From the IMG/VR virus record IMGVR_UViG_3300032288_005075, positions 1 through 22,820 of that record: 22,820 bases of DNA; one strand, 5' to 3'. Below the pieces are notes generated by a model that had not been told where the DNA came from, made no database searches, and saw only the letters and a list, made by a program, of their open reading frames with translations. Every line of letters begins with the position of its first letter. Within the stretch, counting starts at the first letter, position 1. Positions 936-19,454 of the stretch are shown piece by piece. This stretch comes from a virus. The translations under genes and the position numbers were made by a program.

Positions 936-943
936 TATTTATA
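936..943 (+). promoter_or_regulatory. Promoter-like element TATTTATA before the sheath gene
   Basis: TATTTATA followed by TGTAACTGAAA. The same extension (AGTAACTAAAA) follows the copy at 3276. It ends 27 nt before the sheath ATG at 971. It is probably the core of a phage promoter; no transcript data are available. Confidence 0.55.
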
Positions 944-970
944 TGTAACTGAAAATAAATTCAAACAACT

Positions 971-3259
971 ATGGCAACAGAAAAAATCGTATCACCTGGT
1001 GTATTCACAAGAGAAAATGACCTCTCGTATTTACCTACAGGTATAGCTCAAATTGGTGCAGCAATCGTAGGCCCTACAGAATATGGCCCCGCTTTCTTAC
1101 CAAAAATAGTTACAACTCAACAAGAATATGAGCAAGTATTTGGTCTTCCAACCGATTACTATACAGGATACGCAGCTCAGAACTACCTTAGAGAGGCTGG
1201 TTCTTTGACAGTTGTCAGAGTTGGTGGTATAGGTGGATATAGTTTGGGTGGTGGTTTAGTAGTGGAGGCATCATCAGGTTCTGCTAGTACTAAGCAGATT
1301 GTTGCAGTTTTAGCACCATCTTCCTCAAGAAGTACCTCAATAGCTTTATTTGGTGGTACTGACCTTGGAAGTGGTTCTTTTGGTGTATCCCAAAGTGGTG
1401 CAACCGTAGCAACAGCAAGTATTCTATTATCATCAACCGCATCTGTAGATGATGTGTTTGGAACTAATCCTTTCTTTGGTAAAGGTGCGTACGCCTATCT
1501 ATACTTTGATACTACAACAATTACTGGTAGTTTATTATATAATGTTAATCCGGCTCATATCACGGTAAGTTTAGCTCCGCTAGATACTTATGGTGGAAAT
1601 ACTGCACCTCAGAATTTTACTGATGATGCAACTTATGCTTCAACACCATGGATACAATCTCAACAATATGCAGGTTCAAGATATAACTTATTTAAAGTAC
1701 ATACTCTATCTGACGGTATTACTGAAAATAGAAGATTTAAAGTACAAATTTCAAATGTAAAGATTTCCGATGGAGAGACTTATGGAACATTTACTTTGAC
1801 TCTTCGTTCTTATGATGATACCGATAGAAGAAAAACTATTCTTGAAACATATTCAGGATTAGATATGAACCCTGATTCTCCTAACTTTATTGCTAGAAGA
1901 ATTGGTGATAAACAAACAACTATTGATTCACTTGGTAAAATAACCGAAACAGGTAACTATGGTAATATATCTAAGTATATTAGAATAGAGGTTGCAACCG
2001 AAGGTACATATCCTTTAACTGCAATTCCTATAGCTAACGCTGCTTATCAATTACCTATTAATTTTGGAACAAATGGTGGTTTATTGCAAGCCGTAAGATT
2101 TGTTACCTCATCTGCAAGTTCTTCAATTTTCCCAAGTGGATTTGATTTTACAAACGATAACAACATATACTACTTAGCTCCTATTCCTGCAAACGCTGGC
2201 ACAGGTGCTAATACATCCTTTGGATTGGATACTACCGTTGCGTTATCATTTAATGATAATAGTGCAACTGAGGTACAAAAAAGAAACTTTGTTGTGGCAT
2301 TCCAAGAGGGATTTGATGGATTGAATCCCACTACACCAAAATACAAAGGTGCAGATATTACGGCAACTAATACACAAGGATTTAATTGTTCAACTTCAAC
2401 ATCATCTGGTTCTGTAGCGTATGCAAGAGCATTCGATGCACTATCTAACCCTGATGAATTTGATGTCAACTTATTATCAACTCCTGGTATTATTCGCTCA
2501 CTACATCCTTCTGTTACTACAGATGCGATTGATACTTGTGAAGGAAGAGAAGATGTATTCTACATTGCTGATTTTACAACTGCCACAGCTACCGTAGCAG
2601 ATGCAGTTAACCAAGCAGATGCAGTAGATACCAACTACGCAGCAACCTACTATCCTTGGGTTAAGACAATTGATACTAACACCAACAAGTTAGTTACAAT
2701 TCCTCCATCGGTATTGATGCCGGCTGTGTACGCACAGAACGACAGATTAGGTGCTGAATGGTTTGCTCCCGCTGGTCTTAACAGAGGTGGTATCCCTGGC
2801 GCTTTATCAGTAGTTAATCGTCTAACTCAAGCTGAGAGAGACACCCTATACGAAGGAAAGGTTAACCCTATCGCAGCATTCCCTGGTCAAGGTATCTCCG
2901 CTTTCGGACAGAAAACTTTACAAGATAAAGCAAGTGCATTAGATAGAATCAATGTAAGAAGATTACTTATCAACTTGAAAAAGTTTGTAGCATCTACTTC
3001 ACGATTCTTAGTGTTTGAACAAAATACTGCAACTACAAGACAAAGATTCTTGACAACTGTTAATCCATATTTGGAGGCAGTTCAACAAAGACAAGGCTTG
3101 TACGCTTTCAGAGTGGTTATGGATGAAACTAACAATACTGCAGATGTAATAGATAGAAATATCCTTGCCGGAGCTATCTACATCCAACCTGCTAAGACCG
3201 CTGAATTCATTATCATTGATTTCAATGTTCTTCCTACAGGTGCTACATTTAATGTATAA
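971..3259 (+). CDS. 18: Contractile tail sheath protein (gp18-like)
   Basis: This is the contractile sheath subunit that surrounds the tail tube and shortens on infection. The 762-residue product begins with the classic sheath N-terminus (SPGVFTRENDLS at about 8-19, followed by the TAQIGAAIVGP-type strand). Its C-terminal sheath domain starts near residue 593 (GAEWFAPAGLNRGG). That domain continues through NPIAAFPGQG, the RINVRRL helix, TTRQRFLTTVNPYL and a final GAIYIQPAKTAEFIIIDF strand that in relatives interlocks neighbouring subunits. It is about 100 residues longer than T4 gp18. The extra length is in the Ser/Thr-rich, variable middle (roughly 100-480), probably outward-facing protrusion domains. 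The start follows the promoter-like element and an A-rich leader. The tube gene follows after 46 nt. Confidence 0.96.
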   Translation: MATEKIVSPGVFTRENDLSYLPTGIAQIGAAIVGPTEYGPAFLPKIVTTQQEYEQVFGLPTDYYTGYAAQNYLREAGSLTVVRVGGIGGYSLGGGLVVEASSGSASTKQIVAVLAPSSSRSTSIALFGGTDLGSGSFGVSQSGATVATASILLSSTASVDDVFGTNPFFGKGAYAYLYFDTTTITGSLLYNVNPAHITVSLAPLDTYGGNTAPQNFTDDATYASTPWIQSQQYAGSRYNLFKVHTLSDGITENRRFKVQISNVKISDGETYGTFTLTLRSYDDTDRRKTILETYSGLDMNPDSPNFIARRIGDKQTTIDSLGKITETGNYGNISKYIRIEVATEGTYPLTAIPIANAAYQLPINFGTNGGLLQAVRFVTSSASSSIFPSGFDFTNDNNIYYLAPIPANAGTGANTSFGLDTTVALSFNDNSATEVQKRNFVVAFQEGFDGLNPTTPKYKGADITATNTQGFNCSTSTSSGSVAYARAFDALSNPDEFDVNLLSTPGIIRSLHPSVTTDAIDTCEGREDVFYIADFTTATATVADAVNQADAVDTNYAATYYPWVKTIDTNTNKLVTIPPSVLMPAVYAQNDRLGAEWFAPAGLNRGGIPGALSVVNRLTQAERDTLYEGKVNPIAAFPGQGISAFGQKTLQDKASALDRINVRRLLINLKKFVASTSRFLVFEQNTATTRQRFLTTVNPYLEAVQQRQGLYAFRVVMDETNNTADVIDRNILAGAIYIQPAKTAEFIIIDFNVLPTGATFNV

Positions 3260-3275
3260 AAAGTTAGAAACTAAG

Positions 3276-3283
3276 TATTTATA
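3276..3283 (+). promoter_or_regulatory. Promoter-like element TATTTATA before the tail tube gene
   Basis: TATTTATA followed by AGTAACTAAAA, closely matching the copy before the sheath gene. It ends exactly 22 nt before the ATG at 3306. It would let the abundant tube protein be transcribed separately from the sheath. Confidence 0.6.
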
Positions 3284-3305
3284 AGTAACTAAAACCGAAA
3301 AGACA

Positions 3306-3797
3306 ATGGCAGAAGTATTAGAGTTTAACGATATGTTCTATACGAACTTTGAACCAAAGGTAAAGAACCGCTTTATCTTTGAGATTGATGGTATCCCTTC
3401 TTATATCTGTAAAGCAGGTAAGAGACCTTCTATTAAGTTTGAGGTTATTACAATGGAACACATTAACTTAAAAAGAAAGTTAAAAGGAAAGGGTGAGTGG
3501 GAAGATATCACGGTAACTCTATATGACCCCATCGTTCCTTCAGGTGCGCAAGCAGTAATGGAATGGGTTCGTTTATCACATGAATCCCTAACAGGTAGAG
3601 ATGGATACGCAGAATTCTACAAGAAAGATGTAAACCTTTATATGTTAGGCCCTGTAGGTGATAAGATTGAACAATGGACTTTGAAAGGTGCATTTATCAC
3701 ACAAGCAACTTTTGGTGATTTAGATTGGGCTACTGCGGCTGAAGCAAGTACGATTGAAATCACACTTGCAATGGATTACGCAATTCTTGAGTACTAA
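3306..3797 (+). CDS. 19: Tail tube protein (gp19-like)
   Basis: This is the subunit of the inner tail tube through which DNA passes. The 163-residue length equals that of T4 gp19. The fold is recognisable from the order NRFIFEIDGIPSYICKAG (residues 21-38), the KRKLKGKGEWEDITVTLYDP hairpin (about 57-76), the alpha-helical stretch around AQAVMEWVRLSHE, and the C-terminal strands ending EASTIEITLAMDYAILEY. Position directly behind the sheath gene is the usual T4-type order. It has its own promoter-like element upstream and a strong terminator right behind, fitting high, independently set expression. The call is firm. Confidence 0.95.
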   Translation: MAEVLEFNDMFYTNFEPKVKNRFIFEIDGIPSYICKAGKRPSIKFEVITMEHINLKRKLKGKGEWEDITVTLYDPIVPSGAQAVMEWVRLSHESLTGRDGYAEFYKKDVNLYMLGPVGDKIEQWTLKGAFITQATFGDLDWATAAEASTIEITLAMDYAILEY

Positions 3798-3817
3798 TAT
3801 CAAATTGATGATAAAAC

Positions 3818-3848
3818 AAAACCCCGTTGGAAACAATGGGGTTTTTTT
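3818..3848 (+). terminator. Rho-independent terminator after the tube gene
   Basis: A 12-bp stem (3818-3829 pairing with 3834-3845, one G-U pair) carries a GAAA tetraloop and is followed by seven T's (3842-3848). It lies 21 nt after the tube stop codon and is the strongest terminator in the window. Confidence 0.93.
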
Positions 3849-3872
3849 ATTTCTAATTTTTCTATTATTATA

Positions 3873-3880
3873 TACTTATA
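3873..3880 (+). promoter_or_regulatory. Promoter-like element TACTTATA before the gp26-like gene
   Basis: TACTTATATATG here is identical over 12 bases to 15451-15462. The core ends 22 nt before the ATG at 3903, the same spacing as at 3276 and 4943. It directly follows the terminator at 3818-3848, forming a terminator-promoter boundary. The ATG at 3882 overlaps the element. Confidence 0.55.
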
Positions 3881-3902
3881 TATGAACACTAAAACAAATG
3901 TT

Positions 3903-4703
3903 ATGAGCGAATCAATAGTAGAGTATCAAGTACCCACACCAAAACAAGATAACGGGTACGATTTCCCAACCGAAGTTATTAGCTTACCATCTGAAGGTAA
4001 ACTTTACCCCGAAAATCATCCATTAGCAAAAGGAACGGTAACGATTAAGTACATGACAGCAAAGGAAGAAGATATCCTTGCATCCCAAAACCTTATTAAG
4101 AAGGGGGTTGTAATGGATAAACTTTTAGAAAGTCTTGTAATTGGTGTACCACTTGATGATATAATGGTAGGTGATAAAAATGCTATATTTTTAGCAGCTA
4201 GAATCTTAGGTTATGGTGCAGCATATGATGTAGAAGTTACTGACCCATTTAGTGGAATGAGACAAAAAGTAAGTATAGACTTATCAAAAGTACAAACCAA
4301 AGATGTTGATTTTAGTAAGTTAAACCGAAAGAATGTTTATGAATTTGAATTACCTTTATCAAAGAAGAAAATCAAATTCAAAATGTTGACACACAAAGAT
4401 GAAAAAGAGATAACTGAAGAAATTCAAGCAATGGAAAAACTAAACAAGGGAGCAAACCCCTCTGATGTTACCACGCGTTTGAGAAAGATGATTATTGAAG
4501 TAGATGGTAAAACAGAAAGATCATATATAAACAAATGGATAAATAATGAATTTTTGGCAAGAGATACCAAAGCGTTTAGGGCGCATATTAAAGAAATAAC
4601 ACCTGATATGGATTTACGCTTTAACTTTGTATCCGAAATAACCGGTGAATCGGAGGCACTGGATATTCCATTTGGTATTAGCTTTTTTTACCCTACCGCC
4701 TAA
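3903..4703 (+). CDS. Baseplate/tail assembly protein, gp26-like N-terminal part
   Basis: It resembles the T4 gp26-type baseplate protein family. There is an N-terminal PTEVISLPSEGKLYP segment, then GTVTIKYMTAKEEDIL, a helical core, a YDVEVTDPFSG strand, and a C-terminal region ending LDIPFGISFFYPTA. The start at 3903 (MSESIVEY) is preferred over ATG 3882 because 3882 lies inside the promoter-like element, whereas 3903 gives the 22-nt spacing seen elsewhere. The 3903 start yields 266 residues and the 3882 start 273. The protein stops just where relatives, as I recall them, continue into a conserved VYxMPI...FY segment. That segment is found here in the +1 frame (see 4645-4908). The N-terminal assignment is moderately sure; function is inferred from the family. 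Confidence 0.75.
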   Translation: MSESIVEYQVPTPKQDNGYDFPTEVISLPSEGKLYPENHPLAKGTVTIKYMTAKEEDILASQNLIKKGVVMDKLLESLVIGVPLDDIMVGDKNAIFLAARILGYGAAYDVEVTDPFSGMRQKVSIDLSKVQTKDVDFSKLNRKNVYEFELPLSKKKIKFKMLTHKDEKEITEEIQAMEKLNKGANPSDVTTRLRKMIIEVDGKTERSYINKWINNEFLARDTKAFRAHIKEITPDMDLRFNFVSEITGESEALDIPFGISFFYPTA

Positions 4704-4908
4704 TTATTCAGTTCAATTACATGAACAAATTTGGTCTCTTTGCCATCATGGCAATGGGTTTACTTGGAAAGATGTTTATTTCATGCCAATTCACTGGAGG
4801 AGATTCTACTTTCAAAAATTAGTGGAATTTAAGACAAAAGAAAAGGAAGAAATGGATAAGGTTAACCGAAAAGGTGCGGCAAAACCACCGAAGGTTAAAT
4901 TTAGATAA
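4645..4908 (+). CDS. +1-frame C-terminal baseplate segment (gp26/gp51-like), possibly made by frameshift
   Basis: The +1 frame opens with a GTG at 4645 and ends at TAA 4906. It overlaps the preceding gene by 59 nt. The part beyond the overlap (from about 4703) is clearly protein-like: LHEQIWSLCHHGNGFTW, then DVYFMPIHWRRFYFQKLVEF, then a Lys/Glu-rich tail. The VY-MPI-x-R-FY pattern belongs to small T4-type baseplate assembly proteins. The GTG has no ribosome-binding site, and the overlapped residues (NRRHWIFHLVLAFF) look like out-of-frame translation. A frame change near the T7 run at 4683-4689 would instead fuse this segment to the gp26-like protein. Separate initiation or a sequencing error in the T run cannot be excluded. 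Confidence 0.7.
   Translation: MNRRHWIFHLVLAFFTLPPNYSVQLHEQIWSLCHHGNGFTWKDVYFMPIHWRRFYFQKLVEFKTKEKEEMDKVNRKGAAKPPKVKFR
4683..4689 (+). other. T7 run at the junction of the two baseplate frames (candidate frameshift/slippage site)
   Basis: Seven T's in the context AGC TTT TTT TAC (frame 0) are the obvious slip site inside the overlap of the gp26-like and +1-frame ORFs. Skipping one T joins GISFF to TLPPNYSVQL. Frame 0 stops only 12 nt later, at 4701. Confidence 0.45.
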
Positions 4909-4934
4909 GGGGGTATTTACTCCCTTATTTTTTT
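4905..4934 (+). terminator. Rho-independent terminator overlapping the baseplate stop codon
   Basis: The 9-bp stem 4905-4913 with 4920-4928 (one G-T pair, loop TATTTA) is followed by a T run to 4934. The stop codon at 4906-4908 lies inside the left arm. A promoter-like element follows 8 nt later. Confidence 0.85.
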
Positions 4935-4942
4935 ATTGGTGA

Positions 4943-4950
4943 TATTTATA
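4943..4950 (+). promoter_or_regulatory. Promoter-like element TATTTATA before the 72-residue gene
   Basis: TATTTATA ends exactly 22 nt before the ATG at 4973 and follows the terminator at 4905-4934. It probably starts the long transcript through the tape-measure and baseplate genes. Confidence 0.6.
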
Positions 4951-4972
4951 GATATAGTAAACCATATTTAAA

Positions 4973-5191
4973 ATGAAAAAGAAATCACTTAAAACTGAAG
5001 GATTATTTTCACTGGTAGATAAATTCATGTCAAGTTTTTTTGATGCCTTGAAAAAAGGTGCGGAAGATCAAGTGATACAACAGGCTAGAAAAGCAAAACT
5101 ACCCCCTGAAGCTATTGCTCATATGGAAAAAATGAAAAAACAAAGAGAACAATTTCGTAATACAATGATTAACGCAGTAGGAAGGCGTTAA
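4973..5191 (+). CDS. Small basic helical protein, unknown
   Basis: A 72-residue, lysine- and arginine-rich protein that is almost wholly helical: an amphipathic stretch SLVDKFMSSFFDALKKG (about 13-29), then a PPEAIAHMEKMKKQREQF helix. It has no recognisable family motif. It is the first gene behind a promoter-like element at perfect spacing and lies 18 nt before the tape-measure gene. That position, occupied by tail assembly chaperones or tape-measure partners in many phages, suggests an assembly role, but only by context. Confidence 0.75.
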   Translation: MKKKSLKTEGLFSLVDKFMSSFFDALKKGAEDQVIQQARKAKLPPEAIAHMEKMKKQREQFRNTMINAVGRR

Positions 5192-5209
5192 TACTAATCT
5201 CAATAAGAA

Positions 5210-8200
5210 ATGGCTGGGGCAAATTTAGAAACACCGGAACAATTAGAAAATCTAAGAAAAGGATATACTCGTGCTAAAGAAATTATAGCCGAGATAACTG
5301 AATTGAGGCGAAGAGGAAATCAATTAACCGAAGAAGAGAGAGCAAAACTAACGGAAATTACAGCTGAGCATAGAAAAATAGTTACAGAACGACACCTCAT
5401 ATTAGCTGATGGTAAATTGATGGCCGCTCAGCAGGCCAAATTTAATTCTAGTATATCGGACACAAATCTTATATATGCAAAACAACGAGGTGAAATTGCA
5501 GGTATAAATAGTATGTATCGGGATTTGGGTAACGCTCAAAATCAATTTCTACAACGAACTCAGCAAAGCCTACAATTTCAAATAAATTCAGCTAATACTA
5601 CATCAGAACAAAGAGAGGCTATTGGAACGATAAGCACTTCATTAACCGAACTGACATCAATACAACAAAGACTTGCTGAATCAGATGGATTAAATTTAGA
5701 ACAACAACAAGCAATTAGAGCTGAATATGAGTCAAAATTAAATACATCACGACTTCAAATTGCAAATGGATTAGCTAATAATACAATAACAAGTGACCAA
5801 GCTAAATTATTAGAGGCAGCTCTTAGAAACCAAGAGGAATCATATATTATAGCAGAAAAATACGCAACTGTATCGAAGGAAACAAAAGATAGAATTCAAT
5901 CTCAGGTTGAGGCATATAATAAAATGAAAAATGCTGCAAGAGGAACATTGGATACAATCCGAATGACTCTTCAGTCACCACAGGCACTTGCCATGGCTGC
6001 AGCTGCCGCAGTTACAAAAATAATGACGGCTGCATTAGATGCAAGTAAAAAAACAGGTGAGTTTTTTAGTGGATACGCATTTTCAACAGGCATCCTTGGA
6101 TTAGCATTTGATGATGCACTAAGTACATCAGGAAAGTTAGCAAAAAATTTAGGAGGAACACGAGAAGTAACTTCAGGATTACAACTTGATATACTTGCAA
6201 TGGGTACTGCATTTGGTGTAGGTGGAGATGCAGCAGCAGATTTGTTTAACCAAGCAGGTAAATTATCTGGGAATACAGGAGCAGTTGCTAAAGATATGAT
6301 GGAAGCAACGGCCGCTACTGCCAGAATGAATGGTGTACTTCCTGCTCAAATGTTAGGTGATATGGCAAAAAATACCGAAGGTATGATGCTATATGCTAAA
6401 GGTTCATTTGACCAATTTACTAAAAATGCCGCAGCTGCCGCCAAGTTGGGTGTAGAGTTATCCGCATTAAATAATATGTCAAAAACACTTCTTGATTTTG
6501 AATCATCAATTGAAAGTGAACTTGAATTAAACGCCATGCTTGGTAAAGAAATAAACCTCAATCGTGCCAGAGAATTAGCATATATGGGTAAGCAAGACCA
6601 AGCAGCTGCAGAAATACTAAGACAAGTTGGTGGTATAAATGAGTTGAGAAAAATGGATGTGTTCCAAATGGAACAATTATCAAAAACAACTGGTTTCTCA
6701 GTTGAACAACTATCACAAATGGTGGCAAATGGTGGTAAACTAAAAGAAGAACTTAGCCCAATAGATAGTATGTTTGACGGAATGAGTGAAACTACTAAAG
6801 GATTAATACTAGCCTTCGGTGGCCCATTGATTGGTGCACTTGCAACGGTAATTGCTATGATGATTGGTGCAAATTCATTAGCAGCTAAAATAGGAAAAAG
6901 TGTGGCAGCCGCGCTTCCAGGTGGAGGGGGAGCAATCGGCGGTGGTGCACCAACAGCATCAGGAGGAACGCCATCTGCACCTACAGGAAATGCACCTGGT
7001 AGCAATGTAATGGGTCCTAATCAACAACAAGGATTAGACCAAACTACACGAGGTTCTAATGCAGCGGGTAAAGGTGGTGGGGGTATAGGAGATAAATTGA
7101 AAGATTTAGCGAAGGGATTAAAAGCTATGGGTAACCCACAAGTTTTATTTGGTGCTCTTAATTTGATACCAACCGGATTGGGATTTCTATTATTAATGCC
7201 AGGTCTTCCCTCACTTTTTTTCTTGAGTAAAATTGATGTTAGTAGAGTAGGTAAGGGATTGAGTGATTTATCCAAAGGATTAAGTAAGATGGCATTACCA
7301 TCCGTATTTGTGGGTTCACTAGCACTTGTTGCAGCTGGTATTGGATTTGGATTACTTACCGTAGGTGTTTTAGGTATGGCAGCAGTTTCTCTATTAGGAA
7401 CTTCAGCAGGTACAGGATTAATTTCGTTAGGAACAGGATTAACCGCCATGTCAGGTGGATTAGTTGGAGCAGCTGCATTATCGGTTGCTGCATTAGGATT
7501 CACTTTGATGACATTAGGAATACCTGGCATGATAGGAATCGCATTATTTGGAACTGCAGCTGGAACAGGGCTAACCGCATTAGGAACAGGATTAACAGCC
7601 TTATCAGGTGGATTAGTTGGAGCAGCTGCATTATCAGTAGCCGCATTAGGATTTGCGTTAATGACAGTGGGATTACCTGGTATGATAGGAGTTGCCTTAT
7701 TGGGAGCACCTGCATCAGCTGGATTAATAGCATTGACCACGGGATTAACAGCATTCGGAGCCGCTGCAGCAACAGGAATTCCTTTCTTAGGTGTTTTATT
7801 GTTGGCCGCATTCGGAGCCGCTTTAATTCCATTAGCGTTTGCACTATCATTAGTTGCTCCATTAGTTACCGCTATTGGTAGTGTGATAGTAAATGTAATA
7901 ACTGCAATCGCACAAGGTATAGCAACAATTGTAGGAAGTCTTGGTCAATTCTTATCAACAATTATACCGATGATGAGTGTAGAAGCAGCCATGGGTGTAT
8001 TAGCTTTTGCTGGTGCATTTGTTGCTTTGGGATTTTCATTGTTTACATTAGGTATATTTGGTAGTGTGGCAATTCCTACTCTATTGGCACTTTCAGTATT
8101 TATGTTGGCATTGGGTGGAGCAGTGGCTATATTAGATTCATCATTTGCTAGTTTATCTACATCGGTATCTACTATAGGAGAAACTTTATCTACTTTGGCA

Positions 8201-8497
8201 TCATCCAGCTTTACACCATTATTTGGATTAGCATCCGCACTTAGTGAATTGGCTAATTCATTATTTTTAGTAGGATTAGCAGGAATATTAGCATTACCCG
8301 TTTTAAATGGTTTGGCAGAAAATCCGTTAATAATTGGAGCAGGTGGAGGTGAAAAGAAAGGTGAAAACGATGAACTATTAAACGAAATAAGAGGATTGCG
8401 TTCAGATTTATTATCAGGTAAAATAGCGGTCTACATGGATGGTGAAAATGTTACAGCTGCAGTAGCAGGAATAAATCAAGGTAATCCATTAACTTAA
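5210..8497 (+). CDS. Tape-measure-like tail protein with tandem hydrophobic repeats
   Basis: A 1095-residue protein. Residues 1-230 are charged and coiled-coil-like. The stretch 255-520 is Ala- and Met-rich and helical. A hydrophobic helix near 525-555 leads to a Gly/Pro/Ala linker at about 565-605. Residues 620-1060 are a run of hydrophobic helices, including five units of about 51 residues. This mix of long coiled coil, membrane-like segments and low-complexity linkers, placed between tail assembly and baseplate genes, is typical of a tape measure (role of T4 gp29). If most of it were extended helix, it would fit a tail longer than T4's. It begins 18 nt after its neighbour with an A-rich leader and no Shine-Dalgarno. 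Two long reverse-strand ORFs inside it are codon-bias shadows. The call rests on architecture, not on a specific motif. Confidence 0.78.
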   Translation: MAGANLETPEQLENLRKGYTRAKEIIAEITELRRRGNQLTEEERAKLTEITAEHRKIVTERHLILADGKLMAAQQAKFNSSISDTNLIYAKQRGEIAGINSMYRDLGNAQNQFLQRTQQSLQFQINSANTTSEQREAIGTISTSLTELTSIQQRLAESDGLNLEQQQAIRAEYESKLNTSRLQIANGLANNTITSDQAKLLEAALRNQEESYIIAEKYATVSKETKDRIQSQVEAYNKMKNAARGTLDTIRMTLQSPQALAMAAAAAVTKIMTAALDASKKTGEFFSGYAFSTGILGLAFDDALSTSGKLAKNLGGTREVTSGLQLDILAMGTAFGVGGDAAADLFNQAGKLSGNTGAVAKDMMEATAATARMNGVLPAQMLGDMAKNTEGMMLYAKGSFDQFTKNAAAAAKLGVELSALNNMSKTLLDFESSIESELELNAMLGKEINLNRARELAYMGKQDQAAAEILRQVGGINELRKMDVFQMEQLSKTTGFSVEQLSQMVANGGKLKEELSPIDSMFDGMSETTKGLILAFGGPLIGALATVIAMMIGANSLAAKIGKSVAAALPGGGGAIGGGAPTASGGTPSAPTGNAPGSNVMGPNQQQGLDQTTRGSNAAGKGGGGIGDKLKDLAKGLKAMGNPQVLFGALNLIPTGLGFLLLMPGLPSLFFLSKIDVSRVGKGLSDLSKGLSKMALPSVFVGSLALVAAGIGFGLLTVGVLGMAAVSLLGTSAGTGLISLGTGLTAMSGGLVGAAALSVAALGFTLMTLGIPGMIGIALFGTAAGTGLTALGTGLTALSGGLVGAAALSVAALGFALMTVGLPGMIGVALLGAPASAGLIALTTGLTAFGAAAATGIPFLGVLLLAAFGAALIPLAFALSLVAPLVTAIGSVIVNVITAIAQGIATIVGSLGQFLSTIIPMMSVEAAMGVLAFAGAFVALGFSLFTLGIFGSVAIPTLLALSVFMLALGGAVAILDSSFASLSTSVSTIGETLSTLASSSFTPLFGLASALSELANSLFLVGLAGILALPVLNGLAENPLIIGAGGGEKKGENDELLNEIRGLRSDLLSGKIAVYMDGENVTAAVAGINQGNPLT
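7409..7714 (+). repeat. Two near-identical 153-bp (51-residue) tandem repeats in the tape-measure gene
   Basis: Residues 734-784 and 785-835 share GTGLxxLGTGLTAxSGGLVGAA and the following ALSVAALGF-x-LMT segment almost unchanged. The DNA offset is exactly 153 nt (for example TTAGGAACAGG at 7427 and 7580). More diverged copies lie before (about 7090-7408) and after (to about 7865), giving roughly five units in all. Confidence 0.88.
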
Positions 8498-8501
8498 TAT
8501 C

Positions 8502-11222: not shown

Positions 11223-11231
11223 TTTTTTAGT

Positions 11232-11528
11232 ATGATAAAACGATACGATAATCCATCAACCGGCCCCAAAAGATTACCAAATGGACAAACCGTTAGGATA
11301 ATAAAACCATTTCAAAGTATACCAAAATCAGATGATGATATATACATCCGTACAGAAGAGGGTGATAGGCTTGATTTGATAGCTATGGAATTTTATGGTG
11401 ACCCAACTTTATGGTGGATAATTGCAATTGCAAATAACATAAATTCTGCCGATATTGGAGTTAATAGTGGAGTAGAGTTAAGAATACCCAGAGATTTAGA
11501 ATACATAAACTCATTAACACAAATATAG
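11232..11528 (+). CDS. LysM-like baseplate protein (gp53/P2 gpX type)
   Basis: A 98-residue protein. Residues about 40-95 carry the LysM-like pattern of phage tail proteins: EGDRLDLIAMEFYGDPTLWW, then IAIANNI, then a GVELRIP end. In T4 this type of domain is found in baseplate wedge protein gp53, and in P2 in gpX. The domain is thought to stabilise protein-protein contacts in the baseplate rather than to bind peptidoglycan. It lies 9 nt after the large baseplate gene and 3 nt before the hub-like gene, which fits this role. The leader shows no Shine-Dalgarno at usable distance. Confidence 0.85.
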   Translation: MIKRYDNPSTGPKRLPNGQTVRIIKPFQSIPKSDDDIYIRTEEGDRLDLIAMEFYGDPTLWWIIAIANNINSADIGVNSGVELRIPRDLEYINSLTQI

Positions 11529-11531
11529 AAA

Positions 11532-13757
11532 ATGTCAATTTTTCAAAGTGAAGTTTTTCCTTATATTGGAAGAGAATTACAAGCAAGAACGAATACTGCG
11601 GTTGCATCAAAAATGAAACCATGGATATTAGTTCGTTCAAATGTATCACCGGGAAAAGTTTTAGGAACTTTATCATACGGTTCATTTGGACAATCATATG
11701 GGGCAGATTTAAGACCTAACCCACTTATAACCGATTGGTCTATTGATTTTTCATCTAGAGGTACACTACGCAAAGGTACACTAAAAATAAAATGTTTTTC
11801 TGTCTCTCAGTTAGAAGAAATACAAAAATATTTTATGGAACCAGGTATGAGTGTATTTGTACAATGGGGATGGACACAAACCGCTACAACGGGAATGCCA
11901 GTTAGTGCGTTACCATTAGATGCAAATTTTCAAAGAGCATTTTATAGAAATGTTGAAGTTCTTCAGGCATATAGGAATGATAAACTTGGATGCTATGATA
12001 ATATGCTAGGAATTATATCTAAAGCAGAATCATCGGTAAGTGGAAACGAATTTGAAGTTACTTGTAAAATATGTTCGTTAGGTGAATTACTACAAGGGTT
12101 ATCAAGTAAAGGCACTTCATTAGGAAGTGATAATGAAAATGCAACAGAAGGTAAAGTAAAAGGAAAAAGTTTTTATGATAGGGATATAAAGCAGCAAAGG
12201 GTAAGCAAAAATTGGAAAGCAGCCAGCTTTATGGCGTTCTATAATGCATTACCTGATTCATTAAAAGATAACACAACTTATGGTTTATGGAATAGTTCTG
12301 ATATAAAAGGTGGTGAATTTATAAATTATGATGAATCAATTGCAGAAACCGTAAAAGATGAAACACAAGATGAATCTTGGTATGAAATTTTTGAAAATAA
12401 TGATTTTGATTTTTTGGGTAAAAATATAATACCACAAGATGATGAGAGCCCAGTAAGTCCAAACAAATATGTAAAGTTTGATTTTTTAGTAAAATTGTAT
12501 AATAGGATTTGCACAGTCAGAAACGGTCAAAACATTGAAGATATAAATTTTCCGATAGATATTGGAACAAAGGCAAAACCAACAGCAATTTGTGGTGCGT
12601 TTCGTGAAATATACTCACCTGATTCTGCAATCTTCATACCAAATGATAGTGCGCATAATTGGTATGCTAAATTAGAAGCTTATACTATTTTACCCGCGGC
12701 AGGTGGAACAGATGATAGATATGGTTCTGGTATATACGCATCCGCAACTGCAGAATCAGCAAAACCAAATGTAAACTATCCACAATTTTTGGATAATACT
12801 ATTCCAACACTTGACCCATCATATCCTAACGGAAAAATTAGTTTTCCTGATTCAAGGTCAGGACCACCTACGGCAGAGGGTAAACCAATGGACCCATACA
12901 CTTGGGGGTGGATTGGCGATATTTATGTTGAACATGGAGTAGCCATGAGTTTTTTAGAATCGTTTGAAGAAGGTGCTTTAAGTTCACTAACAAATATACT
13001 ACAAGTTATGTCTGATGCAGTTGGAGGATTTTGGTTTTTTCAACCAAAACAAGCAGATTCTGGTGGTGAACGAATTACAATAATGGATTTTGCTCAAAAA
13101 AGTATAGAAAAACCAAACCCCTTAAAATTACAATTATACGGACCAAGTAGTGTATTTTTAGATGCAAGTTTTAATTTTGATATACCAAAAGCATTGGCAT
13201 CTAGAGTAATTATGACAAGATCAACTAAGGGTGAAGTGGAATCATATCCACCCACATATAGCTTGTTTTCTGAAGATGCGCAAGATGAAGTAATAACTGA
13301 AGATTTTTTATCTGCTCAAACATACACCCCACCTGCAGCAGAAACACCACAACCTGGCCCAACTGCGGATGAAAAGAAGAAAGAGGCATGGATAAAAATT
13401 AGAGAGAATAGCCAAATTTTAGTAAGCCCTGAATATAATGGCTCAGGATATATAGATAAATGGTTAGTACCGGGAGTTGGAAATGATTTGCAAGTTTTTA
13501 TGTCTTTTGTTAAAAAGGCTGCTAAAGAAAATAAAACTAGCAATACAGGTTCACCACTACCAATAAAAGTAAATTTTACGGTATTAGGTATTAGTGGATT
13601 TAAGTTTGGTGATTTATTATCCATACAGGGGTTACCTGCAAAGTATAGCAGTCCTAAAACTGGTTACTTTCAAATAATAGAAGTGAAACATAAGGTTGAT
13701 AATTCTAAGTGGACTACTGAGGTTGAAGCACATTTTAGACCATTACCACCTGCATAA
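11532..13757 (+). CDS. Baseplate hub-like protein (gp27/gpD type)
   Basis: A 741-residue protein. The N-terminal part (residues about 60-200) has the beta-rich pattern LITDWSIDFSSRGTLRKGTLKIKC and VFVQWGWTQ, followed by a hub-type FEVTCKICSLGELL strand. The C-terminus (about 680-741) has the pattern LGISGFKFGDLLSIQGLP, then GYFQIIEVKH and WTTEVEAHFRPLP. This ending is familiar from hub proteins that sit below the tube (T4 gp27, P2 gpD-like). The middle (200-600) is long and variable. No lysozyme motif is seen, so a cell-wall enzyme must be elsewhere. The gene begins 3 nt after the LysM-like gene and belongs to the same operon. The hub call is good, but a wedge protein cannot be excluded. Confidence 0.78.
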   Translation: MSIFQSEVFPYIGRELQARTNTAVASKMKPWILVRSNVSPGKVLGTLSYGSFGQSYGADLRPNPLITDWSIDFSSRGTLRKGTLKIKCFSVSQLEEIQKYFMEPGMSVFVQWGWTQTATTGMPVSALPLDANFQRAFYRNVEVLQAYRNDKLGCYDNMLGIISKAESSVSGNEFEVTCKICSLGELLQGLSSKGTSLGSDNENATEGKVKGKSFYDRDIKQQRVSKNWKAASFMAFYNALPDSLKDNTTYGLWNSSDIKGGEFINYDESIAETVKDETQDESWYEIFENNDFDFLGKNIIPQDDESPVSPNKYVKFDFLVKLYNRICTVRNGQNIEDINFPIDIGTKAKPTAICGAFREIYSPDSAIFIPNDSAHNWYAKLEAYTILPAAGGTDDRYGSGIYASATAESAKPNVNYPQFLDNTIPTLDPSYPNGKISFPDSRSGPPTAEGKPMDPYTWGWIGDIYVEHGVAMSFLESFEEGALSSLTNILQVMSDAVGGFWFFQPKQADSGGERITIMDFAQKSIEKPNPLKLQLYGPSSVFLDASFNFDIPKALASRVIMTRSTKGEVESYPPTYSLFSEDAQDEVITEDFLSAQTYTPPAAETPQPGPTADEKKKEAWIKIRENSQILVSPEYNGSGYIDKWLVPGVGNDLQVFMSFVKKAAKENKTSNTGSPLPIKVNFTVLGISGFKFGDLLSIQGLPAKYSSPKTGYFQIIEVKHKVDNSKWTTEVEAHFRPLPPA

Positions 13758-13772
13758 TAACTAACTAAACAA

Positions 13773-14174
13773 ATGAAAGATAGATACATACAATTAGCTG
13801 GTAAAAAAAGAATACAAAATCGTATACCACAGGTGTATTTACCTAATCCAAGTTCGTTTGATTATAAAAGTGGATTGATACGCCGATATTTTATTCAGGC
13901 TAGAGATTTTAAATATTCACCAATATTTGAAGTAACAGAATCAGAGTATGCCAAGATAATAACAACGGATAGTTATTATAAAGGTGTTCAGTTAAATTGG
14001 AGAATAACAGGAGAACTTAGAGATTCTTTTTTTGCCAAAGATGATGGAACACTCATAAGAACAATATCTGCAGTTAATTTTAATCGTATGTCAATAAAAG
14101 AGGCAGCTAAAACAATGCCCGATATTGCACTCTATTTAGTAGATTTAAAGCAATTTTATAAACCATCTGTGTAA
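13773..14174 (+). CDS. Unknown 133-residue protein at the end of the baseplate operon
   Basis: A basic N-terminus (MKDRYIQLAGKKRIQNRIPQVYLP) leads to a mixed alpha/beta body with KSGLIRRYFIQARDF and a WRITGELRDSFF segment, ending in a PDIALYLVDLKQFY helix. No family is recognised. It follows the hub-like gene by 15 nt and is the last gene before the polymerase. It is probably co-transcribed with the baseplate genes, so a small tail or baseplate part is likely by context only. Confidence 0.78.
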   Translation: MKDRYIQLAGKKRIQNRIPQVYLPNPSSFDYKSGLIRRYFIQARDFKYSPIFEVTESEYAKIITTDSYYKGVQLNWRITGELRDSFFAKDDGTLIRTISAVNFNRMSIKEAAKTMPDIALYLVDLKQFYKPSV

Positions 14175-14189
14175 ATTGTAAAATTCAGG

Positions 14190-14202
14190 TTTTATTCGTA
14201 TA
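14190..14202 (+). promoter_or_regulatory. Second promoter-like motif TTTTATTCGTATA before the polymerase gene
   Basis: TTTTATTCGTATA recurs with one change (TTTTATTCCTATA) at 18942-18954. The two sites precede the polymerase gene and the DUF1599-like gene that opens the gp32-uvsX run. The motif lies only 9 nt before the ATG at 14212. With two copies this is tentative. Confidence 0.35.
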
Positions 14203-14211
14203 CTATACCTG

Positions 14212-15450
14212 ATGGTAAAATTTGTTGAGAGTAATCAGGTACTAACTGAATTCTTATCTGAATACAAGGGTAAGGGTAGTATTATTTTTCCAATTTTTCA
14301 GAACCGAACCACACACCCGATACATAACCGATTAGTGATTGTATTGGTTTACATTGGAAAAGATTGTTGGGTATTAGCAAACGAACATAATGATTCACTT
14401 TCTATTAACTTAGATATATTAGAACAAAGTGAAGCCACAAAATGGGTATTTGATACAAAGTGGTTGATTCACAAACTTAAATTATCTAATACTAAAAGTG
14501 TGGATGTCTCATATCATTTAAGTGAACTTAAAACCTACGATTATGCATCATTGTATCACGCATTAACCCAGTTTTACAAAACACCGAATGATTTATCATT
14601 CATTCCTATAACTAAGATAATTGAAAAAGTAAGTGATTTTGTAAACGATAATTTGAAGTATGTAAACGATAGTGTAAGTGGGTTTGATAAGTACAATGAT
14701 TTAGTGTTACCTGCGTTTAATTTAATAGAAGGAAATGGTATACCAACCAAATTTGGAAAAGAGTATTCCTTATATAACAACTTTACAATCACAGGTAGAC
14801 CAACTAACAATTTTGGTGGAGTAAATTATTCTGCACTAAACAAATCAGATGGAAGTAGAGACCACATCGTGAGTGAATTAGGTGAGTTCTACCAATACGA
14901 TTATGATGGGTATCACATACGATTAATCAGTAAATTGATAGGAGAACCGATACCAGAATCATCCGCACACGAATGGTTAGGAAAACAATATTTTGGAAAG
15001 GATGAATTGACCGATGAAGAGTATCAAGTAAGTAAAGCAATAACTTTTCGTCAGTTGTATGGAGGTATTGACCCACACAATTTATCAATGCCATTCTTTG
15101 ATAGAACAAATCAATTTATTAAAACACTATACAATGATTTCTTAGTTAAGGGGTATATACAGACCCGATTTGGGAAACGAATACCGTTTCAAAAAATAGA
15201 AAATCACAATCCCCAAAAGGTATTTAATTATTATCTACAAGCTTTGGAAACCGAAACCAATGTAATGATATTAGGTAGATTAAATGAATTGCTAAAAGGT
15301 AAACGGACAAAGTTAATTCTGTATACATACGATTCATTCCTATTTGATGTTGATGTAGAAGAACTCAATATACTCCCTACAATCGAATCAATTTTACATT
15401 TAATAGCACCTACGGAGGTATCAAAAAATAGTATTTACGGGAAAATCTAA
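14212..15450 (+). CDS. Short, divergent family A DNA polymerase
   Basis: A 412-residue protein with the palm and fingers motifs of DNA polymerase I-type enzymes. Motif A is YDYDGYHIR with Asp230; the Glu usual five residues later is His. Motif B is SKAITFRQLYGG with Lys275, Phe279 and Tyr283 at the usual 4- and 8-residue spacing. A TRFGKRIPF segment matches the T-x-x-GRR region. Motif C is LILYTYDSFLFDV with Asp374, where the usual His-Asp-Glu is Tyr-Asp-Ser. Both metal-binding Asp residues are therefore kept. The N-terminal 140 residues resemble the place of a 3'-5' exonuclease (WVFDTKWLIHKL, KTYDYASLYHAL), but no DxE motif is visible, so proofreading looks absent. The protein is much shorter than Klenow-type enzymes. 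T4 itself uses a family B polymerase. I infer a DNA-synthesising role, main or accessory. Confidence 0.83.
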   Translation: MVKFVESNQVLTEFLSEYKGKGSIIFPIFQNRTTHPIHNRLVIVLVYIGKDCWVLANEHNDSLSINLDILEQSEATKWVFDTKWLIHKLKLSNTKSVDVSYHLSELKTYDYASLYHALTQFYKTPNDLSFIPITKIIEKVSDFVNDNLKYVNDSVSGFDKYNDLVLPAFNLIEGNGIPTKFGKEYSLYNNFTITGRPTNNFGGVNYSALNKSDGSRDHIVSELGEFYQYDYDGYHIRLISKLIGEPIPESSAHEWLGKQYFGKDELTDEEYQVSKAITFRQLYGGIDPHNLSMPFFDRTNQFIKTLYNDFLVKGYIQTRFGKRIPFQKIENHNPQKVFNYYLQALETETNVMILGRLNELLKGKRTKLILYTYDSFLFDVDVEELNILPTIESILHLIAPTEVSKNSIYGKI

Positions 15451-15458
15451 TACTTATA
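15451..15458 (+). promoter_or_regulatory. Promoter-like element TACTTATA after the polymerase gene
   Basis: It starts right after the polymerase stop codon (15448-15450). The 12-mer TACTTATATATG is identical to that at 3873-3884. It ends 29 nt before ATG 15488 and may start a transcript for the two unknown genes that follow. Confidence 0.5.
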
Positions 15459-15487
15459 TATGTACAAAAGTATTAACGACCTCGTAA

Positions 15488-15886
15488 ATGATAAAGACAC
15501 AATTATTATGTACATTCACAACCGAATCAGAGTTGCAGACTGTACTGAAAAATATAAGAGAAACTTATAAGATAGTATATAACTACATTTATATCCTACA
15601 AAACAAAAACATACCATCTGATTTATATATAACCTATAACATAGATGTAGAGTTCAAACCTGATACCCAATTAATTAACACCATTCTTGTTCATAGAAAG
15701 AAGCAATCAAATACCATATATACAATCAATGCCCTAAACCAATTGATTAAGCAGGATAATGGTGGAGTATTGGATTCCAAGTTTAGTGTAGATTGGGAAA
15801 AGTACAAAAATTGCATTATTTTAACCGGAACTGATGGTATAAGACAAATTCCTACAAAGATATTTGAAAAGATACAATTCTCTTAA
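15488..15886 (+). CDS. Unknown 132-residue protein
   Basis: Alternating strands and helices: MIKTQLLCTFTTESELQTVL, a YKIVYNYIYIL strand, a DLYITYNIDVEF strand, a TIYTINALNQLIK helix and a CIILTGTDGIRQIP end. The opening strand plus helix resembles small ferredoxin-like folds, but no known family or active site is recognised. It sits 37 nt after the polymerase gene, behind a promoter-like element, and 3 nt before the 1016-residue gene, so these two are probably translated from one message. Function unknown. Confidence 0.78.
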   Translation: MIKTQLLCTFTTESELQTVLKNIRETYKIVYNYIYILQNKNIPSDLYITYNIDVEFKPDTQLINTILVHRKKQSNTIYTINALNQLIKQDNGGVLDSKFSVDWEKYKNCIILTGTDGIRQIPTKIFEKIQFS

Positions 15887-15889
15887 ATT

Positions 15890-18800
15890 ATGGATATCAA
15901 AAATCTACTAGATGAGTTACTATTAGAGGTATCAATGTATCACCCTATTCCCGATTTGAGTAATAGGGAACACATTCAAACCCTTATCAATATATGTGAA
16001 GAGAGAGGATATAATCAGTTTGTCACTCTAATTAGAGAGGCATTTTTAGATGAAGCAGGCGCTGGTGCTGAGGCAAAAAAGAAGGGATTGATTCATGTTG
16101 GTAAAGGTTTCTATGCCAAAAAGAAAGGTGAAAAACCAATATACAAAACGGTAGATGGTAAACTTACACCTATAAGTAAAGATGAACCTACACCTGATGA
16201 TACAGATAAATCAAAAAAACAACCCGATAAAGAAACTCCATCTTCACAGCAACAAATAAAAGATAAACCACTAACATCTCCATCCAAAGATGCATCAGAT
16301 GATAATGAATCAGATAAAAAAGAACAAGAATTTCAAACCGCAAAAGCTAATCCTGATGCTGTATTGAAAGACCCAAATGTATCTGCTCGCTCAGTAGCAA
16401 TAGCACGCGACCAAAAATCTAAAAATAGTGTACAATCTACACAAGATACTACATCTCAATCCAAAACACAGGGTGAAGAAGAACCGCGTAAGAAGTTAAG
16501 TCCAGCTAAACAAAAAGTTGTTGATAAGGCAGTGTATAATAAACAATTATCGGGCAAGGAATTGGAAATGATAGAAAGTGATACAGATGCAAGAAAACAA
16601 TATGTTGAGGCCAGAATGGAGAATTACAACGAGGAATATACTAACACTCCCGACCCTAAAAAAGAAGAGTTTTTGAGTAACTTTATTGATCAAAGAGCAA
16701 ATGAGGTAAGTGCTAATTATTTAAGACCGGCTGGAACTCCCGCTTCTTCATTCGCAGAAAATAATGGAGCAAGATTAGTCAATCAAATGTTTAATTCACC
16801 GAATCAAATGAGTGAAGATGAGTTGGTTAAGGGCTTATTAAAGCAACCGATTGCAACAGAAATTGACAAAAAAGATCGGGAAAGATGGGCTAGAATAGCC
16901 GTTAGAACAGCAAAAACTGAAGCAGAAGTTTTAAGAACTGACCGAAAATATCGTGCTAAGAATCCACAGAATCCTCCATATCCAAAAGGAGTCATAATGG
17001 ATGGGCAATCAAAAGAAGCAGTGCGTACTCATTTTAAACATTTGTTAGAAAAGGCAAAGAAGGAAGGTAATACTGCAGCCATAAACCATTACACAAAACA
17101 ATTACGATATATTGATGAGATAAAGGAAAGTGATACAGGGGTAATGTATGAAACCGAAGATGGAACTGTAGGATTTAAGCACACATCAAATAAAAGTGGA
17201 TATGCCGACCCACATAACAATACTACTCCTGATCAAGTAGTTAGTGATATGACACAGAGATTACAAGAAAGAGGACTGGCAGGAGAAGATAGCCCAGTTA
17301 TTAAAGCCCAGCAAGATGCAATTGATGAAATTTCAAAAGCAGAGCGTATGTTAACTGATGGGGCACCTGCATGGGCACAGGGAAGAAATGTAACTCCACA
17401 ACAGAACAAAAGAGCTGCAGCAGGTGGAGGAGCATTGTTTGGTAGGTTTCCAATTGGTCAAGGAGCAGATAAAGACTACCTTGAGGAGGCGTTTAAGAAG
17501 AAAAAGAATGGAGAGTACAATAAGGAGGTTACAGAAGCAGCTGCAGCAGCAGGTGTTAAACTTCCATTAGACCCTAACGACCCAAAACTAAAAGAAAAAC
17601 AAATGAAAATAGTCTTTGAATTGTTAAAGAATCCAAAGGCTAGTAAAGGATTTGTAAAAAAGTTAATAAGAAAAATAGGTGAATTACATACTACGCTAGC
17701 TGCTTGCGATTCAACAAAAAATCCCGAAGCATGCAAACTGAAAAAGAAAACAGAATGGGCAAAGTATTGTGGAGCAAAAGTAGAAGATATAGATGAGATA
17801 TTAAAACAAACCGAAGGGTTGGCAGATGTGGGTGCTAACTTTAAAAAATCTGTAGCAGAAGCGCATGATAGAATAGTTTCTTCATATCAAGATGCAGATA
17901 CTGACCATTGTGAAAAAGAAGGCAAACCATGTTATCCAAAAGACCCAACTGCAGATAACGGCCCACACCAACAAGCATATGTTGAAAACTTTATGCACAG
18001 GATGCATTTTGATTCATATATAATGGGAGAAAGAGATGGAGTTAGTTCTCAAAATATCGGAGGAGATGATGTTAAACCTGAGTACTATAGACAATGTTTA
18101 GCAGAATTATCTGGGTATGATGGGGATACTGAATCCGAAGAGGGCAGAAAAGGTTTAGTTCAACACCTAACAAAACGGCTTCGTATATCACCTGGCGGTG
18201 AATCTATTAGTATAGAATCTAAAAAAGAAGGCGAAGAAGCAATTACAATAGGAAAAGATTCATACCGAACTAAAGGTCAATCTAAAGGTGTGTTGGGTGG
18301 GTTGGGTAAATCCATGCAAGAATGTTTAGAGAAAAAAGCTAAGCCTAATAAAAATGAAGGGATTGAAGAGATAACATCATTACCGAAAGAAGTAAAAGAA
18401 AGATTGATTACTCGTTTAAAATCAGAATCAGCTGATACCACTCTTCGTTCATTAGATGAGATGTTTAACACCATCATAAATAGATTATTAAACGAAGAGA
18501 GCACACTAGGCGGATATGAAGCCGATGGTGAACCTCCAACTGGGCATTTACCCGATGGAAAAATCCGAATGATAAACAAAAACAAACCTGAGAATTGGTT
18601 TAAGCAATTAGGGTATACTCAAATAGATAAACCTAAAGCCGATGCAATGCGAGGCAAAGGAAAGCATAAAGATAAAGATAGTCAATTCCGTCAAATAAGT
18701 TATCATGTTCAAAATATGGTACAATCAACACTTAACCCTGCTGAAAAACCAAAAGAAACTAAAAAGTGGGATAAAGTAAAAGGTGATGTTGCCAAACAAA

Positions 18801-18940
18801 TAAGAGGTAAAGGTGAAACTCGTTTTTGGGATTTACAAACTACACCTGAAGGAAAAAAAGCACAGGAAAAGGCTAAAAAGAAAGCAGAAAAAGAACAAAA
18901 GAAGAAACAAAAAATATCTTCTAAAATTTTCAAACCTTAA
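15890..18940 (+). CDS. Large hydrophilic protein, unknown (1016 residues)
   Basis: A helical N-terminus (1-55) is followed by a compact motif at 60-97 with GLIHVGKGFYAKKKG and YKTVDGKL. Then comes a disordered, Lys/Asp/Ser/Gln-rich stretch (about 98-200) and a mainly helical, charged body. Several Cys occur in clusters (Cys606, Cys615, Cys627; Cys674 and Cys681 in CEKEGKPC), with nearby His residues. The end (about 985-1016) is strongly basic, mostly Lys and Glu. No transmembrane segment or catalytic motif is recognised. It could be a virion or injected protein, or a DNA-associated scaffold; the sequence alone does not decide. It is the largest gene on the replication side of the window and begins 3 nt after the preceding stop. 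Confidence 0.85.
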   Translation: MDIKNLLDELLLEVSMYHPIPDLSNREHIQTLINICEERGYNQFVTLIREAFLDEAGAGAEAKKKGLIHVGKGFYAKKKGEKPIYKTVDGKLTPISKDEPTPDDTDKSKKQPDKETPSSQQQIKDKPLTSPSKDASDDNESDKKEQEFQTAKANPDAVLKDPNVSARSVAIARDQKSKNSVQSTQDTTSQSKTQGEEEPRKKLSPAKQKVVDKAVYNKQLSGKELEMIESDTDARKQYVEARMENYNEEYTNTPDPKKEEFLSNFIDQRANEVSANYLRPAGTPASSFAENNGARLVNQMFNSPNQMSEDELVKGLLKQPIATEIDKKDRERWARIAVRTAKTEAEVLRTDRKYRAKNPQNPPYPKGVIMDGQSKEAVRTHFKHLLEKAKKEGNTAAINHYTKQLRYIDEIKESDTGVMYETEDGTVGFKHTSNKSGYADPHNNTTPDQVVSDMTQRLQERGLAGEDSPVIKAQQDAIDEISKAERMLTDGAPAWAQGRNVTPQQNKRAAAGGGALFGRFPIGQGADKDYLEEAFKKKKNGEYNKEVTEAAAAAGVKLPLDPNDPKLKEKQMKIVFELLKNPKASKGFVKKLIRKIGELHTTLAACDSTKNPEACKLKKKTEWAKYCGAKVEDIDEILKQTEGLADVGANFKKSVAEAHDRIVSSYQDADTDHCEKEGKPCYPKDPTADNGPHQQAYVENFMHRMHFDSYIMGERDGVSSQNIGGDDVKPEYYRQCLAELSGYDGDTESEEGRKGLVQHLTKRLRISPGGESISIESKKEGEEAITIGKDSYRTKGQSKGVLGGLGKSMQECLEKKAKPNKNEGIEEITSLPKEVKERLITRLKSESADTTLRSLDEMFNTIINRLLNEESTLGGYEADGEPPTGHLPDGKIRMINKNKPENWFKQLGYTQIDKPKADAMRGKGKHKDKDSQFRQISYHVQNMVQSTLNPAEKPKETKKWDKVKGDVAKQIRGKGETRFWDLQTTPEGKKAQEKAKKKAEKEQKKKQKISSKIFKP

Positions 18941-18941
18941 C

Positions 18942-18954
18942 TTTTATTCCTATA
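18942..18954 (+). promoter_or_regulatory. Second promoter-like motif TTTTATTCCTATA
   Basis: It matches 14190-14202 in 12 of 13 bases and lies 19 nt before the ATG at 18974, in the 33-nt gap after the 1016-residue gene. It may start the DUF1599-like and following replication genes. Confidence 0.35.
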
Positions 18955-18973
18955 TTGGATTAAACAATTCAAT

Positions 18974-19345
18974 ATGGAATCAAAACAACTATCTATTTGG
19001 GATGAAACTTCCCCAATTGTAAAAGAGATTGAAACAAAATACCCCGAAATGACTAACGAATACAAGCGTATTATGTTAGAAGGATACGAAACATTCTGCA
19101 AAAAGCAATCAAACTACGGCCCTGATAATATTGCTGTAGGAACGATCCTCAAAACAGATGATGATATCAAATTATCAATTACAGGTATTTGGTTCAGAAT
19201 GAATGATAAGATACAAAGATTAAAACAACTAGTTATTTTAGGTAAAAAAGATACGGTAAACGAACCCGTAGAAGATACACTACAAGATTTGGGTGTATAT
19301 GCTATTATAGCTCAGATAGTTAAGCGTAAAAAATGGGCAAAATAA
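18974..19345 (+). CDS. DUF1599-like phage protein (nucleotide modification-associated domain)
   Basis: A 123-residue protein with the DUF1599-like pattern: a helix with FCKKQSNYG (41-49), then a GIWFRMNDKIQRLKQL helix (71-86), and finally EPVEDTLQDLGVYAIIA (97-113). The conserved Arg-x-x-Asp-Lys and Asp-x-x-Asp-Leu residues give an acidic, all-alpha arrangement reminiscent of MazG/dUTPase-type nucleotide hydrolases. I recall this family as being linked by context to phage nucleotide metabolism or base modification; its reaction is not established to my knowledge. It lies upstream of the gp32-like gene, consistent with a DNA metabolism role. Confidence 0.72.
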   Translation: MESKQLSIWDETSPIVKEIETKYPEMTNEYKRIMLEGYETFCKKQSNYGPDNIAVGTILKTDDDIKLSITGIWFRMNDKIQRLKQLVILGKKDTVNEPVEDTLQDLGVYAIIAQIVKRKKWAK

Positions 19346-19454
19346 CATTTGGATTATTCAATTTTTTTCACTACCTTAGTAGAGATTTTAGGGTAAAGAG
19401 TATTTATACTTGTAAGCCTTAAAACTTAACAATAAACTTTAAACAATAAAAACT
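19346..19454. other. 109-nt gap and leader of the ssDNA-binding protein gene
   Basis: This is the longest gap between genes in the window. It holds a T7 tract (19362-19368) without a strong stem, a weak 7-bp hairpin (19373-19379 with 19388-19394, two G-T pairs), the promoter-like element at 19401, and a G-poor leader with a near-direct repeat (ACAATAAACT at 19429, ACAATAAAAACT at 19443). Confidence 0.6.
19401..19408 (+). promoter_or_regulatory. Promoter-like element TATTTATA before the gp32-like gene
   Basis: TATTTATA ends 46 nt before the ATG at 19455, giving the longest leader among the six copies. The longer leader may serve translational control of the ssDNA-binding protein. Confidence 0.5.

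Follow-up and report, generated by a model that had tools for sequence, protein, structure and literature searches.

We consider it likely that TATTTATA is the core of a late promoter in a large group of T4-like Bacteroidota myophages, relatives of Flavobacterium phage immuto, and that this promoter is served by a phage-encoded sigma factor. The original prediction of a phage-specific promoter core finds support in the sense-only placement of the element, its anchoring to start codons, its enrichment in late modules, its single-box form, its conservation in distant phages and the separate class of host-type promoters on early genes. From these sequence features we infer promoter function.

The window, meaning the whole stretch of DNA that was analysed, is a 22.8-kb fragment (22,820 nt) of a virus record with all genes in one direction. 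Its genes encode a tail sheath, a tail tube, a baseplate-hub-like protein, a baseplate wedge, a ssDNA-binding protein, a UvsX-like recombinase, an exonuclease and a DnaB-like helicase. No match to named phages was returned by megablast with the window. Among cultured phages, the nearest that shares this gene order is Flavobacterium phage immuto (L082, MW353175.1; 160 kb), whose sheath protein is 53% identical over the aligned part, and the sheath protein of Microcystis phage Mel-JY01 (L089, PP395634.1), recorded on a cyanobacterium, is 44% identical. A search for sheath relatives in GTDB genomes as a clue to the host found none; the hosts of the immuto-related group are probably Bacteroidota. 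The copies of the element in the window, with the neighboring features, are as follows.

936-943, + strand: TATTTATA, proposed late promoter core of the tail sheath gene, 27 nt to the start codon (971)
971-3259, + strand: tail sheath protein gene (PHROG 23, E 3.6e-67)
3276-3283, + strand: TATTTATA, proposed late promoter core of the tail tube gene, 22 nt to the start codon (3306)
3306-3797, + strand: tail tube protein gene (PHROG 4542, E 4.1e-27)
3818-3852, + strand: terminator-like hairpin behind the tube gene, upstream of the copy at 3873
3873-3880, + strand: variant TACTTATA, proposed late promoter core of the baseplate-hub-like gene 3903-4703, 22 nt to the start
4903-4934, + strand: terminator-like hairpin behind gene 4645-4908, upstream of the copy at 4943
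4943-4950, + strand: TATTTATA, proposed late promoter core of small gene 4973-5191 with large gene 5210-8497 behind it, 22 nt to 4973
15451-15458, + strand: variant TACTTATA, proposed late promoter core of genes 15488-15886 and 15890-18940, 29 nt to 15488
19401-19408, + strand: TATTTATA, proposed late start of the ssDNA-binding protein gene 19455-20327, 46 nt to 19455

TAYTTATA was thus recovered on the + strand at exactly the six positions originally reported, with the distances to the start codons that had been given (22 nt three times, otherwise 27, 29 and 46 nt). Since the spacing ranges from 22 to 46 nt, the distance is a preferred one and not, as had been claimed, a fixed one. Counted over both strands, TAYTTATA is only weakly above chance in the window, with 10 copies against 5.6 expected. 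The signal in the window is therefore the location of the copies, as all six sense copies lie wholly in noncoding gaps, which make up 706 of the 22,820 nt. This agrees with the earlier placement of every copy between genes, and the proposed comparison of gaps with coding parts on both strands thereby showed that sense copies are confined to gaps and are not equally frequent inside genes. Dinucleotide-shuffled gaps are expected to hold 0.37 copies, and six were reached in none of 2000 shuffles. The element is carried by six of the ten gaps of at least 30 nt. Of the four antisense copies, three fall within genes, and the one at 3280 shares bases with the sense copy at 3276. Two copies had been described as following terminators, and those at 3873 and 4943 do lie behind terminator-like hairpins, at 3818-3845 and 4903-4930. 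The extension noted at the sheath and tube copies is likewise present (TGTAACTGAAA and AGTAACTAAAA), and among the relatives only the nearest, L001, retains it at both genes. Two in-frame ATGs occur in the hub-like gene, at 3882 and 3903; the upstream one follows the element by 1 nt and probably does not serve as the start codon.

To follow the element across relatives, 80 related loci were gathered with the sheath protein, of which 34 were inspected for the element and 26 nonredundant loci were counted, with mechanical gene calls in the relatives. In nearly all of the 34 relatives, (A)TATTTATA or the variant TATTTATT was found upstream of both the sheath and the tube gene, and the sequence flanking the element at these genes has diverged. 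The top enriched 8-mers upstream of genes in the 26 loci were ATATTTAT and TATTTATA. Their upstream regions held 86 sense copies versus 7 antisense copies, and sense copies outnumbered antisense copies in 24 of 24 informative loci (p=1e-7). Element density was 6.6 per kb upstream versus 0.065 per kb per coding strand, a difference of about 100-fold. At any gap length the element is anchored to the start codon that follows it, and its distance to the upstream stop codon is not constant. The middle half of the distances spans 21-34 nt in relatives of the window, where gaps are 60-120 nt, and 13-30 nt in the immuto group. The motif built from gaps in the relatives, as had been suggested, consisted of one core, with information solely in A-TATTTAT-A/T and no second box. 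The element is also present in the long relatives G001-G004, G042 and G046, and TATTTATA lies before late genes in the distant phage Mel-JY01. In the commonest marine form, CTATTTAT, a C precedes the core. Marine loci that bear the candidate sigma gene described below contain 41 antisense copies of the element, which counts against the late-promoter reading. The thermophilic phage RM378 was considered as a further promoter case, and the element was not enriched there.

In T4, the late promoter is a single TATA box of 8 bp with no -35 box (PMC2988020; PMC7892883). The original prediction described the element as the reverse complement of the T4 core and hence not that promoter in its known orientation. 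This is literally true, as TATTTATA is the exact reverse complement of TATAAATA; a simpler relation is nevertheless seen in the same orientation, in which the two match at six of eight positions with the central AA replaced by TT. The same-orientation relation is the useful one because the element is sense-oriented. The core in the 26 loci is TATTTATA, and TATAAATA itself was found in only 7 sense copies in their upstream regions. The element thus resembles the T4 late promoter in being a single 8-bp AT box, in the sense orientation before late genes and without a -35 box, and differs from it in the center. Among late promoters of other T4-like phages (KVP40, 44RR, S-PM2 and Aeh1), variants of the T4 box are already known. 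The Aeh1 variant, a/gC at -13/-12 (PMC2988020), alters the first two positions, whereas the element described here alters the center. Our search of the open-access literature found neither a TT-centered late promoter box nor a paper reporting this motif for phages.

The gaps of immuto were compared by module, with late or early status taken from gene annotation. The element was present in 15 of 30 gaps of late modules versus 7 of 75 others (p=1.4e-5). Late immuto genes preceded by it include those for terminase, portal, sheath, tube, hub and tape measure, and the TATTTATA before the annotated tape measure gene was taken as evidence for the copy at 4943 in the window. Against the late-promoter reading, the 7 gaps outside late modules carry the element, and the major capsid gene of immuto is preceded by a short gap without it. 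Other immuto gaps contain a different repeat, AGTTGC...TTCGTATATTTAGGTATCAATAATT, in which the spacing from TTG to TATATTTAGG is exactly 20 nt at 18 sites. In Bacteroidota, sigma-A promoters have a TTG box at -33. As read from the sequence, the layout of the immuto early gaps is that of these promoters. Their -7 box is TAnnTTTG (PMC9723704). In relatives of the window, gaps lacking the element are enriched in the host -7 box TATATTTG, with 7 copies versus 0.32 expected. Early and late genes apparently use different promoters, as in T4, because the element is found in late gaps and the two-box sequence in others. A two-box early promoter, TTG-N20-TATATTTAGGTATCAATAATT, was also noted in about 20 copies before small unknown genes of immuto (L082, ~60955-76215) and in marine loci such as L102, L103 and L129, and TTTAGGTA is strongly enriched in marine relatives. 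Two candidates of the host type were read from the window.

14176-14206, + strand: two-box candidate TTG-N20-TATACTATA before gene 14212-15450, in a gap without TAYTTATA
19349-19379, + strand: host-type two-box candidate (TTTGG ... TACCTTAG) in the gap before the ssDNA-binding protein gene, a possible early start of that gene

The 20-nt spacing of the candidate at 14176-14206 matches that of the immuto early promoters. The gap before the ssDNA-binding protein gene (19346-19454) contains the host-type candidate followed downstream by TATTTATA, which suggests that, with both kinds of promoter, this gene is expressed early as well as late. In G001 and G004, TATTTATA lies at 48 and 46 nt, with a TATATTTG/TATCTTTG box upstream.

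A gp55-like sigma factor had been suggested as the reader of the element, and a candidate gene for it is encoded by complete relatives.

L082:28174-28872: immuto26A_153, an unannotated conserved protein whose N-terminal half is gp55-like and whose C-terminal part is a helical domain

In immuto, a search with the PHROG late sigma family returned a single weak match, gene 153 (E 0.008). The gene-153 family is strongly conserved, with members in at least 600 IMG/VR stretches, and the Mel-JY01 orthologue matches at E 3e-46. When a profile of nine classical gp55 proteins was searched against 868 proteins of seven phages, three gene-153 orthologues ranked 1-3 (E 0.011-0.016; next hit 0.61), and in the reverse search from the gene-153 family cyanophage gp55 ranked first. 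Alignment of the family with gp55 by hhalign was colinear but weak (probability 5.5%, E 0.007). The AlphaFold model of full-length gp153 (pLDDT 79.5) had sigma factors as its best fold matches, with phage sigma-E in the viral library (probability 1.00, E 0.012) and sigma factors at E above 1 in a Foldseek search of the PDB. The N-terminal domain model (pLDDT 85.8) showed a best TM of 0.69 to region 2 of sigma-E, with PDB Foldseek E values above 0.5. Over its whole length the family is similar in fold to two-domain phage sigma factors such as the sigma-E-like protein of Bacillus phage Shanette. It has no significant sequence match to them, however, and its N-terminal half is closest to gp55. 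On the basis of these sequence and model comparisons, the gene-153 family is probably a late sigma factor, and we treat it as a candidate reader of the element. No sigma factor was returned by a PDB sequence search with the gene-153 profile, and neither Pfam Sigma70_r2 in eight records nor PHROG 12791 (sigma for late transcription) in the relatives gave a match. In other T4-like phages gp55 has the gp47/gp46 order beside it; a PHROG scan of the genes flanking gene 153 for this arrangement also found no match, and the C-terminal half of gp153 had no significant match among T4 and cyanophage ORFs, a set without the T4 gene 33 region. A weak match to the family (E 7e-4) was noted in RM378 for Rm378p020 (L172:1222-2016), which lies next to a helicase gene and is a possible sigma factor.

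The sigma gene is absent from the window and from the fragmentary contigs of its nearest relatives. Because this clade is known from fragments, its own sigma gene is assumed from immuto and Mel-JY01. No contig combined the sigma gene with a close match to the UvsX-type gene of the window, and the Mel-JY01 sigma as an IMG/VR query found no relatives. The phages resemble the T4 gp55/gp33/gp45 system in the gp55-like candidate of complete relatives and in host-type promoters on early genes. They differ in that no gp45-type sliding clamp was detected in immuto, G042, G046, Mel-JY01 or RM378, and in that the candidate sigma, at about 230 aa, is longer than T4 gp55 and has a C-terminal domain. The clamp profiles PF02916 and PF09116 found the clamp in T4 and gave no match in the complete or near-complete relatives, a search that a very diverged clamp could escape. 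Immuto is annotated with a family A DNA polymerase. A fused late sigma was stated to be unknown in PMC2988020. It is a tentative possibility, which we regard as somewhat doubtful, that the gene-153 family is a natural fusion of a gp55-like domain 2 with a C-terminal domain, the latter standing in for gp33 or serving as sigma domain 4, and that the family drives clamp-independent late transcription from TATTTATA in very abundant aquatic phages.

Other explanations of the element were weighed against a late promoter. Its exact reverse complementarity to the T4 core could mean that an ordinary T4 late promoter TATAAATA points the opposite way and makes antisense RNA over the preceding gene. This is very improbable, as the element follows the downstream start codon and not the preceding stop codon, the one-directional modules have almost no antisense genes to serve, and T4 itself uses its core in the sense orientation, with 10 copies of TATAAATA versus 2 of TATTTATA before + strand genes. 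There is also a small chance that the element acts at the RNA level as an mRNA leader signal, such as a translation enhancer, a ribosome stand-by site or an endonuclease processing site, with promoters elsewhere. Its usual position 15-40 nt before start codons would suit a leader, as would the lack of Shine-Dalgarno sites in Bacteroidota described in PMC6847099. Nevertheless, the overall spread of 0-65 nt is too wide for a ribosome signal, tightly packed genes within operons lack the element, and it is tied to late modules. It often lies directly behind terminators, a place that calls for a new start: of the 164 sense copies, 28 fall within 70 nt behind a terminator-like hairpin compared with about 2-4% of random positions, an excess that arises partly because both sit in gaps.

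Recognition by the unmodified host holoenzyme, with the element as a shifted or degenerate Bacteroidota -7 box, is similarly improbable. The hosts are probably Bacteroidota, some copies read TATATTTATA, which is compatible with TAnnTTT, and the immuto early motif TATATTTAGG has TATTTA in common with the element. The element and the sigma-A promoter are alike in their AT-rich -7 region, and promoters of the sigma-A type are present on early genes of the same phages. However, the TTG at fixed spacing seen at those early sites is missing from TATTTATA, as is the TAnn part; the TA two bases further upstream is not conserved (A in 42% and T in 38% at position -2), the commonest marine form places a C before the core, and the element is retained in a phage recorded on Microcystis. 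We consider it rather unlikely that the promoter reading is right and the reader is another phage activator or sigma outside the gene-153 family. The gene-153 protein and the motif are linked by co-occurrence only, and the gp55 homology is weak by E-value, which would favor another reader; against it, the three orthologues were the only finds of the gp55 profile in the seven phages, and the fold matches are to sigma factors.

With a late promoter core as the preferred reading, TATTTATA would be a single -10-like box without a -35/-33 box, and transcription would start about 6 nt downstream, as in T4, giving a leader of roughly 10-40 nt. The observed spacing from the element to the start codons would accommodate a start about one helical turn downstream. 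Early genes would be read from ordinary host promoters, TTG-N20-TAnnTTT, and late genes would be switched on by a phage-encoded sigma factor that re-targets the host RNA polymerase core. The best candidate for this factor, the conserved immuto26A_153 family with its N-terminal half resembling gp55 (sigma domain 2), would recognize the element.

If true, this would provide a late-promoter consensus for T4-like Bacteroidota phages, a group common in aquatic metagenomes for which none was found published in the open-access literature, and would allow late genes and operons to be marked in many uncultured genomes. The conserved, unannotated gene 153 is named as a probable late sigma factor, and these phages would offer a natural test of T4-type late transcription without the T4 sliding clamp.
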